Of a DNA stretch of 64,000 nucleotides, positions 2,695-7,872 are shown piece after piece. Made by a program: the position numbers and the translations under genes. Source of the DNA: Bacillota bacterium (GTDB lineage Bacteria; Bacillota; Sulfobacillia; Symbiobacteriales; ZC4RG38). The notes below the pieces were generated by a model, which was given only the letters and a program-made list of their open reading frames with translations, had not been told where the DNA came from and did not search any database. The stretch is from positions 62,001-126,000 of the forward strand of contig JAKKUO010000001.1 of NCBI GenBank assembly GCA_021890795.1. Direction: 5' to 3'. Position 1 is the first letter of the stretch. Each line of letters starts with the position of its first letter.

Positions 2695-3060
2695 GTGTCC
2701 GGCACGACAGGAATGACGGTCCAGAGCTTATTGAAAATGAAGCGGTTCGGAGACTACCGCCAGGGCACCCGCCCCCTCCAGTACCGCCGGGCCGACTGGA
2801 TCCAGATGGCCCGGGGCAAGGAGCGGGCCCTGCGGCTCTTGGTCAAGTCCACCCTCGGCGTTCCCAGCGCCCACCACAGCGACCAGGATTATCCCATGTG
2901 GTGCTTTCAATTCCCCGACGGGGGTGAGCTCGTCGTGCTCATCGCCCGGGGAGGGGGCCAGGTGCAGCTGGTCGCCCGGAACGAGGAGCAGTCCCGGGAC
3001 CTCAAGCAGGCAGTGGACTTCTTGCTGGAAGAGCTGGGCAGCAAGCTCCGCCAGCTCTGA
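2695..3060 (+). CDS. hypothetical protein, 121 aa
   Basis: This small soluble protein starts at GTG, seven bases after AAGGAGG, and follows the acetyltransferase by 15 bases. It has a helical, basic N-terminal half and a central pair of strands (YPMWCFQFP, ELVVLIARGG), then a helix (SRDLKQAVDFLLEEL) near the C-terminus. I do not recognise the family. The tight spacing to its neighbours on both sides (15 and 32 bases) suggests it is a middle gene of the rluB operon. Confidence 0.65.
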   Translation: MSGTTGMTVQSLLKMKRFGDYRQGTRPLQYRRADWIQMARGKERALRLLVKSTLGVPSAHHSDQDYPMWCFQFPDGGELVVLIARGGGQVQLVARNEEQSRDLKQAVDFLLEELGSKLRQL

Positions 3061-3092: not shown

Positions 3093-3866
3093 GTGCACTG
3101 GTGGGAAGAGACCGAGCGCCGGGCCCTGGCCACCCGGGGCCAGGCGGCCCTGGCCCTCACCTTCTGGCAGCGGCTCCGGGAGGCCGGCTGTCCGGCGGAC
3201 CTGGCCTTGCTGCCCGCCCAGGGCCTTGCGGGGCTGTACAGTTCCGGGATCGACCTGGTCCACTGGGTCGACGGGCTGCTGACCGCGGACGCCCAGAGCC
3301 TGGAGAGCCACCTCCTCGCCCTCCGGGCCTGGGTCCGGGAGGCAGCCTTCCGCATCCGGGAGTCCCACCGGCCCTTTCTCCTCCTCCTGGACGGCCTGCG
3401 GGTGGACCCGGAAGAGTTCCCCCAGGAGCCGGAGGAGGACCTGCCCGCCGGGGTGCTCCCCCCGGAAGCGGCGCCCAAGTGGGAGGGGCGATACGAGCAG
3501 CGGCACCTCCTGTACGAGCGGCTGGACATCCGGCTTGAAGCCCTGGGGATGGCCGGGCCGGTCCGCCGCCCCTTTGCCCATTCCCTGGCCACGGTCTACG
3601 AGGAGTTCATGGTGCTGCTGCGGCGGCTCCAGCCCCTCACCGGGCCCCACGGCCGGCTCCGGCTGCGGGAGGCGGTGGCGCTCATCTCCGACGTGACCAC
3701 CACCTTTCACCTGGACCTGGGCCCCCGGCATCTGGAGTCCCTCAGGGCCGAGCCGGGCCGGCCAGCGATCCCGGGACTCGGCACCTGGCTGGATCTGGCC
3801 CTGGCCTCCCTCACGCCGGGTGGTCTGCCGCCGGAGTGGCTCGCGGAGGGAACCGGGGCCGGCTAG
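3093..3866 (+). CDS. hypothetical protein, 257 aa
   Basis: This is a soluble, largely helical 257-residue protein starting at GTG behind GGGAGG. It has no signal peptide, membrane segment or recognisable catalytic motif. Around residues 90-135 there is an acidic/proline-rich linker (EEFPQEPEEDLPAG) separating two helical halves. It is the last gene before the promoter and structured leader of rny, and it probably closes the rluB-acetyltransferase operon. No function is assigned. Confidence 0.65.
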   Translation: MHWWEETERRALATRGQAALALTFWQRLREAGCPADLALLPAQGLAGLYSSGIDLVHWVDGLLTADAQSLESHLLALRAWVREAAFRIRESHRPFLLLLDGLRVDPEEFPQEPEEDLPAGVLPPEAAPKWEGRYEQRHLLYERLDIRLEALGMAGPVRRPFAHSLATVYEEFMVLLRRLQPLTGPHGRLRLREAVALISDVTTTFHLDLGPRHLESLRAEPGRPAIPGLGTWLDLALASLTPGGLPPEWLAEGTGAG

Positions 3867-3872
3867 CAGTTC

Positions 3873-3901
3873 TTGACAGAGCGTTGCATTGGCGATATTA
3901 T
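3873..3901 (+). promoter_or_regulatory. sigma-A type promoter of the rny leader / ncRNA
   Basis: TTGACA (3873-3878) is followed after 17 bases by TATTAT (3896-3901), which continues as TATTATAAT. This is among the best sigma-A matches in the window and predicts a start near 3908, about 490 bases upstream of the rny start codon. Confidence 0.75.
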
Positions 3902-4240
3902 AATGGATAGATTCGTGTCCGCATGTCCGCCATCTGGCTGTTCGATAGATGGGCGGGGCCTTCCGAGGCCCTGCCGGACAGGCTGCTAGCCGCCCCCGGC
4001 CGGTTCGGGGACCGGGGAGTCAGAACCGACCGGAACGGGCCCGCCCCGGCCTGAGCCCGTTCGGACCGCTGACCGTCCCGGACCGGGACCGGTCACCCTG
4101 GCTGGCGCAAGGTGGCAGCGCCTGACCGCCTTCGCGGCAGTTCGACCGGCGCCACCGGGTTCAGGTGCCGCTGTGAGGCTTCGGGCGGCCGCCATGACCG
4201 GTGCGCCTTTTGTTTATGTCCAGGCGCCTCTGTGCGCCTG

Positions 4241-4269
4241 CCGTCTGGACTTGCCAGACGGTTTCTTCC
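4241..4269 (+). terminator. terminator-like hairpin inside the rny leader
   Basis: CCGTCTGG and CCAGACGG form an 8-bp stem around ACTTG, followed by TTTCTTCC. It is preceded directly by a second hairpin (CAGGCGC/GCGCCTG, 4221-4240). GTCCAG at 4218-4223 could instead pair with CTGGAC at 4245-4250 and disrupt both. Confidence 0.45.
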
Positions 4270-4315
4270 GCATAGGCAAAATCGAGCTGGTCGCGAACAG
4301 ATGGGTGGCATGGGG

Positions 4316-4348
4316 ACCGAGTCGACAAGCTCGGTTTTCTTTATTTTG
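4316..4348 (+). terminator. intrinsic terminator just before rny
   Basis: ACCGAG/CTCGGT (4316-4321 with 4330-4335) forms a 6-bp stem followed by TTTCTTTATTTTG. The T-rich run is conspicuous in this GC-rich DNA. It lies 56 bases before the rny start, so transcripts from 3873 must read through or be terminated here. Confidence 0.5.
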
Positions 4349-4404
4349 TCGGATGTGTCGGGGGTAACCCCGGGGCCCAACAAGCCCGAAGGGGGGTGAA
4401 GGCA

Positions 4405-5949
4405 GTGCTGGACTGGCTGATTCTGCCCGCGGTGGGAGCGCTGGGCCTGGCCCTGGGACTGCCCGCGGGCTACTGGTGGCGGCGCCGGCAGGAGGCCCGG
4501 CAGATCGGCGCGGCGGAGGCCCGGGCGGAGGAGATCCTCCGCAAGGCCATGCGGGACGCCGAGGCCCGGAAGAAGGAGGCCGTGCTGGAGGCCAAGGAAG
4601 AGGTGCACCGGCTCCGGACCGAGTTTGAGCGGGAGGTCCGGGAGCGGCGGAGCGAGATCCAGCGGCTGGAGCGCCGGCTGCTGCAGAAGGAAGAGCAGCT
4701 GGACCGGAAGGTGGAGGCCCTCGAGCGGAAGGAGGAAGCCTTCAACCGCCGGGAGCGGGAACTGGAGCGGCAGGCCCAGCAGCTCCAGGAGCTGGAGCGG
4801 CAGAAGCGCCAGGAGCTGGAACGGATCTCCGGCCTCAGCACCGAGGAGGCCCGGCGTCTGTTCCTGAGCCAGATCGAGCAGGAATCCCGGGTCGAAGCGG
4901 CCAAGCTTATCCGCGAGATCGAGGCCGAGGCCAAGGAGACCGCCGAGCGCAAGGCCCGGGAGATCATCGCGACCGCGATCCAGCGGGTGGCGGCGGACCA
5001 CGCCTCGGAGATCACCATCACCGTGGTGCCGCTGCCCAACGATGAGATGAAGGGCCGGATCATCGGCCGGGAGGGCCGGAACATCCGGACCCTGGAGACC
5101 CTCACCGGCATCGACCTCATCATCGACGATACGCCGGAAGCGGTGGTCATCTCCGGCTTTGACCCGATCCGGCGGGAGATCGCGAAGGTGGCGCTGCAGA
5201 AGCTGATCGCCGACGGCCGGATCCACCCGGCCCGGATTGAGGAGATGGTGGAGAAGGCCCAGCGGGAGATCGAGCAGCGCATCCGGGAGGAGGGCGAGGC
5301 CGCCTGCTTTGAGGTGGGGGTCCACGGCCTCCATCCCGAGCTGGTCAAGCTCCTGGGCCGGCTCCGATTCCGTTACTCCTATGGCCAGAACGTGCTGAAG
5401 CACTCCATCGAGGTGGCCCACCTGGCCGGGCTGATGGCCGCGGAGCTGGGGGTCAACGTCGAGGTAGCCAAGCGAGCGGGGCTTCTCCACGACATCGGCA
5501 AGGCGGTGGACCACGAGATGGAGGGCTCCCACGTGGCCATCGGCGTCCAGTTACTGCGGAAGTACAAGGAGAGCCCCGAGGTCATCCACGCGATGGAGAC
5601 CCACCACGGCGATGTCGAGCCCCGGAGCGTGGAATCGGTGCTGGTCACCGCCGCGGATGCCATCTCCGCCTCCCGGCCGGGAGCCCGGCGGGAGACCCTG
5701 GAGAGCTACATCAAGCGGCTGGAGAAGCTGGAGCAGATCTCCGAGTCCTTCGAAGGCGTGGAGAAAGCCTACGCGATTCAGGCGGGCCGGGAGGTCCGGG
5801 TCATGGTCAAGCCCGACCGGGTCGACGACTACGGCACCATCAAGCTCTCCCGGGAGATCGCCCGGCGGATCGAGAACGAACTGGAGTACCCCGGCCAGAT
5901 CAAGGTGACGGTCATCCGGGAGAGCCGGGCGGTGGAGTACGCCCGCTGA
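4405..5949 (+). CDS. rny: ribonuclease Y
   Basis: RNase Y is a membrane-anchored 5'-end-sensitive endoribonuclease that starts mRNA decay in Firmicutes. The 514-residue product has one N-terminal membrane helix (about residues 3-23), a long charged coiled coil to about residue 190, a KH domain with [12 protein letters not shown] at 217-228, and an HD domain with the metal-binding HDIGKA at 362-367. Length matches the family (about 520). GTG 4405 is preferred because AGGGGGGTG lies six bases upstream; an in-frame GTG at 4396 overlaps that ribosome site. It heads the conserved rny-(unknown)-ymdB-spoVS block and is preceded by a long leader. Confidence 0.95.
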
Positions 5950-5960
5950 TTTCCGGTGAC

Positions 5961-5996
5961 CGGCCCCGGGCAGCCCTGTGTGGCTGCCCGGGGCCG
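5961..5996 (+). other. perfect 15-bp hairpin after rny
   Basis: Beginning 12 bases after the rny stop codon, CGGCCCCGGGCAGCC pairs perfectly with GGCTGCCCGGGGCCG around a 6-base loop. There is no T-run, so it may stabilise or process the 3' end of the rny mRNA rather than terminate it. Confidence 0.5.
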
Positions 5997-6015
5997 CTCG
6001 AGCGAGGTGGCAGCG

Positions 6016-6543
6016 TTGGAGCACGACCGGTGGTGGGACGACCCCGAGTGGTCGGAGCGAGCGATCTCGACCCGCATCACCGGCCTTCTGCGCATCCCGG
6101 AGGTCTCCGCGGTCCGGTACGACCCCAGGGAGCAGGTGCTGCGGATCCGGTTCCTCGTGGCCGGCGAGGTGGAGGAGGCCCAGGTGAGCGCCGCCGCCCG
6201 GCGGCTCCAGGAATCCCTGGAGGTGCTGGCCCAGCTGGAGGGCCGGCAGCCCCTCTCTCTGGCGGTGACGGGTTGGGTGGAGGCGGGGGTCGGGACCATC
6301 GAGGTGGTCCGGGACCCGGCCACCCTCACCGTCGGCGAGGTTTACCTGACCACCGAACTTCTCCGGGAGCAATTCGGTGCCGGCCTGGTGGTAGACCCCT
6401 CCGACCCGTACCTGGTGGAGGAGCAGGCCCTGGCCCAGGAAGAGGTGATCCAGGCCCTCATCGCCGACCTCCGGGCCGGCAGGGCCCGGGGTCCGCTGGT
6501 GGCCATCCGGGACGAGGGCCGGCTCCTGGTCTACAGCCAGTAA
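6016..6543 (+). CDS. hypothetical protein between rny and ymdB
   Basis: The 175-residue product starts at TTG, five bases after GAGGTGG. It is acidic and soluble. The first half contains a strand-rich segment (EVSAVRYDPREQVLRIRFLV), the second half a helix-rich one with a conserved-looking EEQALAQEEVIQALIADL. I do not recognise the family. It lies in the intergenic slot between rny and ymdB, which are adjacent in Bacillus, and ends just before a terminator hairpin. Confidence 0.65.
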   Translation: MEHDRWWDDPEWSERAISTRITGLLRIPEVSAVRYDPREQVLRIRFLVAGEVEEAQVSAAARRLQESLEVLAQLEGRQPLSLAVTGWVEAGVGTIEVVRDPATLTVGEVYLTTELLREQFGAGLVVDPSDPYLVEEQALAQEEVIQALIADLRAGRARGPLVAIRDEGRLLVYSQ

Positions 6544-6665: not shown

Positions 6666-7457
6666 GTGCGAATTCTGTTCTTCGGCGACGTGGTGGGCAA
6701 GGCGGGCCGGGAGATCCTGGCCCGCCGCCTCGGCCCCCTGAAGAAGGCCTACGGGGCGGAGGTGGTGGTGGTCAACGGGGAGAACGCCGCCGCGGGCCTG
6801 GGGATCACCCCTGCCATCTGCGAGGAACTCTTCGCCCTGGGGGCGGATGTGATCACCCTGGGCAACCACGCCTGGGACAAGCGGGAGATCATCCCCTACA
6901 TCGACGGCGAGCCCCGCCTCCTCCGTCCCCTGAACCTCCCCCCGGGCACCCCGGGGCTCGGCTCCGCGGTGGTGCGCCGGGGCAGCACGCCGGTGGCGGT
7001 CATCGCCCTCCACGGCCGGGTCTTCTTTCCCTTCATCCCCGACGACCCCTTCCGGGCGGTGGAGGAGGAGGTGGAGCGGCTCCGGCGCCAGACCCCGGTG
7101 ATCCTGGTGGACTTCCACGCGGAGGCCACCTCGGAGAAGGCGGCGATGGCCTGGTTCCTGGACGGCCGGGTCTCCGCGGTGGTGGGGACCCACACCCACG
7201 TGCAGACCGCGGACGCCCGGATCCTCCCCGGGGGGACGGCCTTCATCACCGACGTGGGGATGTGCGGGCCGTGGCAGTCGGTCATCGGCATGAACCCGGA
7301 ACTGGCGCTGCAGCGGCTCCGGACCCAGATGCCCGTCCGGCTGGAGGTCGCCCGGGGGCCGGCGGTGCTCTCCGCGGTCTGCATCGAGGTGGACCCGGCC
7401 ACGGGCCGGGCCCTGGCCATCACCCCGATCCAGGAGCGGGAGGAGGAGCCGGCATAG
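6666..7457 (+). CDS. ymdB: YmdB family metallophosphoesterase
   Basis: YmdB-type enzymes are dinuclear-metal phosphodiesterases acting on 2',3'- or 3',5'-cyclic nucleotides; in Bacillus ymdB affects biofilm and sporulation gene expression. The 263-residue protein shows the family metal ligands in order: GDVVGKAGR near the N-terminus, NGENAA around residue 37, GNHAWD around 66, DFHAEATSEK near 152 and GTHTHVQT near 178. GTG 6666 follows GGAGGAAGGGCC. Family length is about 264, so it is complete. Its place between rny and spoVS is the conserved one. Confidence 0.92.
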   Translation: MRILFFGDVVGKAGREILARRLGPLKKAYGAEVVVVNGENAAAGLGITPAICEELFALGADVITLGNHAWDKREIIPYIDGEPRLLRPLNLPPGTPGLGSAVVRRGSTPVAVIALHGRVFFPFIPDDPFRAVEEEVERLRRQTPVILVDFHAEATSEKAAMAWFLDGRVSAVVGTHTHVQTADARILPGGTAFITDVGMCGPWQSVIGMNPELALQRLRTQMPVRLEVARGPAVLSAVCIEVDPATGRALAITPIQEREEEPA

Positions 7458-7611: not shown

Positions 7612-7872
7612 ATGGATGTGCTTAAGGTATCGGCCAAGTCCAGCCCCAACGCGGTGGCCGGAGCCCTCGCCGGTTGCATCCGGGAGAAGGGATGCGCGGA
7701 ACTGCAGGCCATCGGGGCGGGCGCCCTCAACCAGGCGGTCAAGGCGGTTGCCATCGCCCGGGGGTTTGTCGCACCCAGCGGCCTTGACCTGATCTGCATT
7801 CCGGCCTTCACAGACCTGACCATCGACGGCGAGGAGCGGACGGCGGTGAAGCTGATCGTCCAGCCTCGCTGA
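7612..7872 (+). CDS. spoVS: stage V sporulation protein S
   Basis: SpoVS is a small Alba-fold protein needed for efficient sporulation, affecting septation and coat assembly; nucleic-acid binding is assumed from the fold. The 86-residue product matches the usual length and the highly conserved sequence, with LKVSAKSSPNAVAGALAG at residues 4-21, GAGALNQAVKAVAIARG in the middle and DLICIPAFTDL near 60-70. The ATG lies nine bases after AAGGAGG. A good terminator follows at once, so it is probably expressed alone. Confidence 0.97.
   Translation: MDVLKVSAKSSPNAVAGALAGCIREKGCAELQAIGAGALNQAVKAVAIARGFVAPSGLDLICIPAFTDLTIDGEERTAVKLIVQPR

Follow-up and report, generated by a model that had tools for sequence, protein, structure and literature searches.

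A leader RNA preceding rny in Bacillota whose 5' end can pair with an intrinsic terminator: a candidate transcription attenuator of RNase Y expression

In the window, the whole 64,000-nucleotide stretch of DNA analysed, the RNase Y gene rny is preceded by a promoter-driven leader that ends in an intrinsic terminator, and the first nucleotides of the leader can pair with the arm of the terminator that is transcribed first. The pairing and the terminator are mutually exclusive, and the parts involved are conserved. We consider it fairly probable that the leader is a cis-acting transcription attenuator of rny; judged from sequence, it probably controls the amount of RNase Y made. The arrangement occurs in 64 of the 101 families sampled, and is absent both from Rfam 15 and from the main text of the structured-RNA surveys consulted.

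Organization of the rny locus and its leader

The rny gene (4396..5949, + strand) starts with GTG and encodes a protein with RNase_Y_N, KH and HD domains (Pfam). It is followed by an ORF with no Pfam match (5956-6543), a YmdB-like gene (6672-7457) and spoVS (7612-7872). A coding sequence that looks similar to the 5956-6543 ORF is found 3' of rny in several relatives. Upstream of the leader lie a GNAT acetyltransferase gene and two ORFs (2695-3060 and 3093-3866) without Pfam matches. In G003 and G007 (loci L034 and L037), too, a protein resembling the product of the second ORF ends immediately 5' of the leader, in a position that is occupied by a recX-like gene in several other families.

The features of the leader are listed in Table 1. 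The near-consensus promoter that a first-pass annotation of this DNA had placed upstream of rny was confirmed. Transcription is predicted to start at ~3908, a site deduced from the position of the promoter. In the sister species the -10 box carries a T>A change at 3898 and the spacer is 18 bp long, and the promoter is retained. The leader RNA extends for ~440 nt, from 3908 to the terminator, which is located 47 nt 5' of rny. The RNA spanning 3908-4350 folds with an energy of -245.5 kcal/mol, compared to -203.5 kcal/mol (sd 5.4) for shuffled sequences (z -7.8), and its two ends are joined in one long helix. No start codon in the 3867-4395 interval is preceded by a Shine-Dalgarno-like sequence, in agreement with the annotation, which had seen no credible gene there.

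Two terminator-like hairpins had been described in the leader. The second, formed by the ACCGAG/CUCGGU stem and the tract TTTTCTTTATTTTGT, is called by the terminator scan and kept in relatives; the first is present as a hairpin, and as a terminator it did not hold up.

Table 1. Features of the rny leader and of its promoter in the window.
Feature	Position	Strand	Evidence
Sigma-A type promoter, TTGACA-17-TATTAT	3873..3901	+	11/12 consensus; 1 found, mean of 0.0 in shuffles
5' antiterminator strand, GAUUCG.GUCC	3910..3920	+	Pairs with 4314-4323 (fold); 64-family test; conserved in sister species
5' strands of closing helices P1 (3922-3936) and P2 (3938-3944, CUGUUCG)	3922..3944	+	Fold; family complementarity; compensatory changes in order f2
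AUAGAU motif, at +38, just inside P1/P2	3945..3950	+	Positional enrichment in held-out phylum set
GC-rich distal domain, variable	3956..4207	+	6.7% sister-species divergence over 3956-4270; length varies among relatives
5' strand of P3, UUUUGUUUAUG	4208..4218	+	Pairs with CAUAGGCAAAA (4271-4281); same pairing in G002 and order f2
First hairpin, weak U-tract, peripheral, probably no terminator	4241..4269	+	Not called by scan; U-tract lost in sister species
3' junction core, CAAAAUCGAGCUGGUCG, opposite the AUAGAU motif	4277..4293	+	Counterpart in order-mates; identity in sister species; one copy in genome
3' strands of P2 (4294-4300) and P1 (4298-4312)	4294..4312	+	Fold; family complementarity test; compensatory changes in order f2
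Partner of 5' antiterminator, GGACCGAGUC, overlapping the ascending arm of the terminator	4314..4323	+	Fold; 64-family test; comparison of the two folds
Intrinsic terminator, ACCGAG/CUCGGU, loop UCGACAAG, then UUUUCUUUAUUUU	4316..4349	+	Scan; conserved before rny in relatives

Conservation of the leader

BLASTN searches with the leader returned matches in the same genus only (94% identity over 558 bases) and nothing convincing beyond it; the case for deeper homology is therefore built on tests of position, motif and pairing. Between the window genome and the sister species, none of the 48 positions of the 3908-3955 interval is changed, and no change is found at 4271-4323. The 4271-4340 interval features three changes, all in the terminator loop. 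In contrast, divergence reaches 17% after the terminator, and 58 of 501 third codon positions of rny are changed. The constrained parts of the leader are therefore its two ends, not the GC-rich middle. Among relatives, too, the ends can be aligned and the 100-300 nt in the middle cannot; the distal domain ranges from absent to about 300 nt. A detailed fold of this domain was discarded, as changes in the sister species affect 12 of the predicted pairs and break 8 of them.

In four order-mates, a 56-pair structure that includes the helix between the 5' end and the terminator has 94.6% of its cells paired. Seven pairs are changed on both sides, and none of 500 shuffles scored as high. Pairing falls to 34-41% when the partners are slid, a control that is generous to the structure because the latter was drawn from those same sequences. 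In the same four order-mates the counterpart of the core CAAAAUCGAGCUGGUCG reads AAAACCGAYCUGGUCGACAACC and is identical save for the one Y position; the core itself occurs as one exact copy in the genome of the window. Among the findings that would speak against it, the annotation had named leaders that do not covary or lack conservation; the leaders proved to be conserved and to covary.

The 5' end of the leader can pair with the terminator arm

In the predicted fold, residues 3910-3915 pair with 4318-4323, and residues 3917-3920 pair with 4314-4317. The terminator needs 4316-4321. The two mutually exclusive folds of the window leader have energies of -243.0 and -239.7 kcal/mol, 3.3 kcal/mol apart.

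Complementarity between 22-nt segments of the RNA and the ascending arm plus loop of the terminator was assessed in 64 families, relative to shuffles of each segment. A large excess was detected at offset 0 (KS p 2.0e-11, close relatives being averaged by family and deeper kinship between families remaining in the tests). The excess was strong for segments starting within 4 nt of the predicted transcription start and was absent from offset 10 onward (p > 0.08 at every offset in the 64 families). About a third of the families (31%) are individually below 0.05. When the 40 nt preceding the terminator were used as the target, complementarity mapped mainly to +12..+50 (p 1.4e-11 and 7.6e-9), which corresponds to helix P1, and a weak residue was left at offset 0 (p 0.005).

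A previous comparison of 29 families had shown that 5' ends fit the terminator of their own family better than terminators taken from the other families (p 7e-4). For instance, the duplex between the 5' strand of the window leader and its own terminator region has an energy of -26.2 kcal/mol, compared to a mean of -11.9 kcal/mol with the terminators of other families. Because the terminator varies in sequence from family to family, this match amounts to covariation of the first RNA bases with the stop signal. The strongest signal of the analysis, the pairing between the initial ~12 nt of the leader and the second terminator, lies partly outside the focus of the first-pass annotation.

The locus has two features of an attenuator: its own promoter is followed by an intrinsic terminator before the ORF, and a conserved pairing is exclusive with that terminator. 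Those of T-box and leader-peptide attenuators are lacking, as neither a T-box match nor a start codon with a Shine-Dalgarno-like sequence is present in the leader. Promoter signals were not detected between the terminator and rny, where the best scores average 6.15, compared to 6.38 in shuffled sequences and 10.8 for the leader promoters. Transcripts of rny that start at the leader promoter must therefore pass the terminator. An anti-antiterminator hairpin, formed by the 5' strand and a GUUUCU sequence found before AUAUAGAU, had been suggested by eye in AT-rich relatives, and was rejected because the test over families was null.

Distribution of the leader and relation to known RNAs

DNA upstream of rny was taken from 153 genomes, drawn from the class to which the window belongs and from 60 families sampled across the phylum. 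Promoters were counted when they matched TTGAC(N)-16/18-TANNNT, and a strong terminator had to end at least 90 nt further on. A promoter is present upstream of rny in 121 of the 153 genomes, and 94 genomes, from the 64 families mentioned above, feature both promoter and terminator. Promoters or terminators are expected to be misassigned at some loci, which should weaken the signals and not create them. Carriers include Desulforamulus, Desulfoscipio, Lucifera, Tepidanaerobacter, Dethiobacter and Acidaminococcus. The terminator is usually located 50-150 nt before rny. In AT-rich members of the phylum it is nearly fixed in sequence, (A/G)CCGAGUUUCUnACUCGG(U/C)UUUUU, and the RNA often starts with GGGAGAAA(A/C)UAG.

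The leader varies in size, and very short versions of 45-100 nt are found at the same place before rny. In the sampled loci of Clostridium, Lachnospiraceae, Caldanaerobacter and Bacilli (Sutcliffiella, Terrilactibacillus and two Alicyclobacillus), the leader is short and no terminator was detected between the promoter and rny. In part of the class, such as families f7 and f40 (L071, L072, L074-L077, L079-L083, L085 and L086), a terminator is located 40-85 nt before rny and no leader promoter was found, so that rny would depend on read-through from upstream. Both situations indicate that regulation at the terminator step is not universal.

Additional observations concern single families or loci. 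In the listed genomes of families f8 and f46 of the class, no full-length rny match was found, and some f8 genomes gave weak partial matches. A recurrent (C)CTTGACA... sequence directly precedes the GGGGGTG ribosome-binding site of rny in L139, L144, L166, L168 and L180. A palindromic, repeat-like element at L037:9-139, which gives a sub-threshold MIR9481 match on both strands, is probably a bacterial inverted repeat.

The leader could not be assigned to a known RNA family. The covariance-model search proposed in the annotation, carried out with the 4227 families of Rfam 15, yielded no match at the gathering score in the window leader or in the loci of 39 relatives. Relaxed thresholds revealed chance matches alone. 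In the part of the structured-RNA surveys covered, rny and RNase Y are absent from the main text. The leader resembles 6S RNA in having a closed 5'-3' helix and a housekeeping-type promoter. Unlike 6S RNA, it has no RF00013 match (positions 3840-4450), and the canonical 6S RNA of this genome maps to another contig (G000:C31:15962-16155, 75 bits); a search of 61 genomes located canonical 6S RNA in 57.

BLASTN and exact-copy searches of the genome found no second copy of the leader, and a plasmid search was equally negative. The 5' word of the phylum, GGGAGAAAMTAGRATT, occurs once each in 11 of 299 genomes, compared to 3 for a reversed-pattern control; at least 6 of the 11 matches lie upstream of the known position of rny, and three others are on a contig different from that of rny. 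Taken together, these counts give no evidence of a regulon.

These data bear on the possibility that the leader is a stand-alone RNA of ~440 nt, acting in trans or binding a protein, the ends of which are paired for stability, and that rny is transcribed by leaky read-through. We regard this as unlikely. The strong promoter and terminator and the extensive structure would suit such an RNA, as would the single locus L045, in which the terminator is ~200 nt away from rny. However, the RNA is always found beside rny, while the upstream neighbour changes and may be a recX-like, unnamed, membrane or ATPase-like protein (named from translations). A stand-alone RNA, moreover, needs no pairing between its 5' end and a terminator arm, and the 45-100 nt leaders, the poor conservation of the distal domain, the single copy and the distinctness from canonical 6S RNA all argue against it. 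Since termination must yield some ~440-nt RNA, an independent non-coding RNA of 350-440 nt, the other option considered in the annotation, may coexist with attenuation as a product of the same promoter-terminator unit.

The AUAGAU motif and comparison with known leaders

The AUAGAU motif was sought in the phylum set, which had not been used for its discovery: 13 of the 35 families carry it at +28..+54, compared to 0.8 expected. In the same families it is absent from the adjacent windows (0-27 and 55-81) and near background further along. The relaxed form AUA(G/U)A is found at +28..+54 in 27 of the 35 families (5.0 expected).

RNase Y is the major decay-initiating endoribonuclease of B. subtilis, where it regulates its own mRNA via decay and cuts its own 5' UTR mainly in the first 50 nt (PMC10303841). 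Its sites weakly favour G/A in AU-rich single strands (PMC11780869). The Staphylococcus aureus enzyme cuts preferentially behind a guanosine, and its own transcript contains a putative site (PMC4608709); the rny transcript of C. difficile contains several potential cleavage sites (PMC7438776). The G/A step in AUAGAU (+38..+43), a candidate cleavage site, fits the weak preference reported in PMC11780869. As a candidate riboswitch core, the motif is class- or phylum-wide and short, the 3' core is conserved only within the order, and no known aptamer was matched.

In pbuE-type riboswitches, the P1 helix of the aptamer shares a strand with the terminator, and the gene is on when P1 is formed. The rny leader has a comparable design: one P1 strand also belongs to the terminator, the two folds exclude each other, and the gene is predicted to be on when P1 is formed. 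It differs in having no known ligand or pocket, in using the very 5' end as antiterminator and in preceding a ribonuclease gene.

A second parallel is provided by the Escherichia coli rne leader, which has an Rfam family of its own and is not known to carry a terminator switch. RNase E exerts feedback through the rne 5' UTR (PMC10989929). Both are long structured leaders of the main decay endonuclease, and feedback acts in cis on rne, as it would on rny, but the two enzymes belong to different families and no rne-leader match to Rfam was obtained here. The B. subtilis rny gene has a sigma-A promoter and a 164-nt 5' UTR, and is controlled via the 5' UTR and the early ORF (PMC10303841). Promoter type and a long 5' UTR are points of similarity, and the main UTR cuts of B. 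subtilis fall within the first 50 nt, where AUAGAU lies in the leader described here. In contrast, control in B. subtilis is by mRNA decay, and PMC10303841 mentions no terminator.

Proposed mechanism

We infer a co-transcriptional order of events, a direction of control and a regulated choice. RNA polymerase would start at ~3908 and make the structured leader, and P1 and P2 would zip with the 5' strand as the 3' part emerges. If the closing helix then extended, 3910-3920 would capture the ascending arm (4314-4323) before the other arm is made, allowing read-through into rny. Since the 3' strand of P1 is made just before the terminator, P1 could lengthen into the antiterminator pairing while the descending arm is still to be transcribed. 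If the 5' strand were occupied, cut off or late, the terminator would form and the ~440-nt RNA would be released. Such a kinetic mechanism predicts read-through when the 5' end is intact and free, and termination when it is blocked or cut.

The trigger that we favour is RNase Y itself, acting at or near AUAG/AU (3945-3950) within P1/P2. By analogy with B. subtilis (PMC10303841), RNase Y could plausibly regulate its own expression through this leader. Cleavage at AUAG/AU would free the 5' antiterminator strand from the rest of the RNA, favour termination and reduce rny expression (negative feedback), and it would need to fall within seconds of leader synthesis. The notion that RNase Y activity is the input of the switch, which turns rny off through the terminator, is put forward tentatively, and we hold it to be doubtful.

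The leader might instead be unregulated. The closing helix would mainly shield the rny mRNA against attack by a 5' exonuclease, or maintain it as an RNase Y substrate, and the terminator would set a fixed low level of rny with no switching. Pairing of the 5' end generally protects RNAs. That RNase Y of B. subtilis controls its own mRNA by stability, with no terminator described (PMC10303841), is also in line with this possibility. However, the outer helix overlaps the terminator arm specifically and follows the changes of the terminator between families, and protection alone needs neither. We therefore consider an unregulated leader quite improbable.

The first-pass annotation had proposed attenuation by the first hairpin under the control of a GTCCAG (4218)/CTGGAC (4245) switch, a version that we think can almost certainly be set aside: both sequences are present and pairable on paper (4218-4223/4245-4250), but the switch has no counterpart in G002 or in the order. 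The terminator scan did not call the hairpin, the poor U-tract of which changes from TTTCTTCC to TTCCTTCC in the sister species (4264 T>C), and no T-run is found at its position in G002. In the sister species, A4222>G is accompanied by a compensatory T>C change at 4239, evidence for a local hairpin at 4221-4240 and not for the switch. The comparative evidence supports the general idea of the annotation, namely that rny is controlled by attenuation in a promoter-driven leader; it does not support the switch elements named there.

Significance

If attenuation at the second terminator is correct, the leader parallels that of E. coli rne but appears to act by transcription termination. A conserved element before rny would give a direct handle on how the global rate of mRNA decay is set. 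An RNase-sensing leader, if true, would represent a new class of regulatory RNA, widespread in the terminator-bearing lineages of Bacillota.
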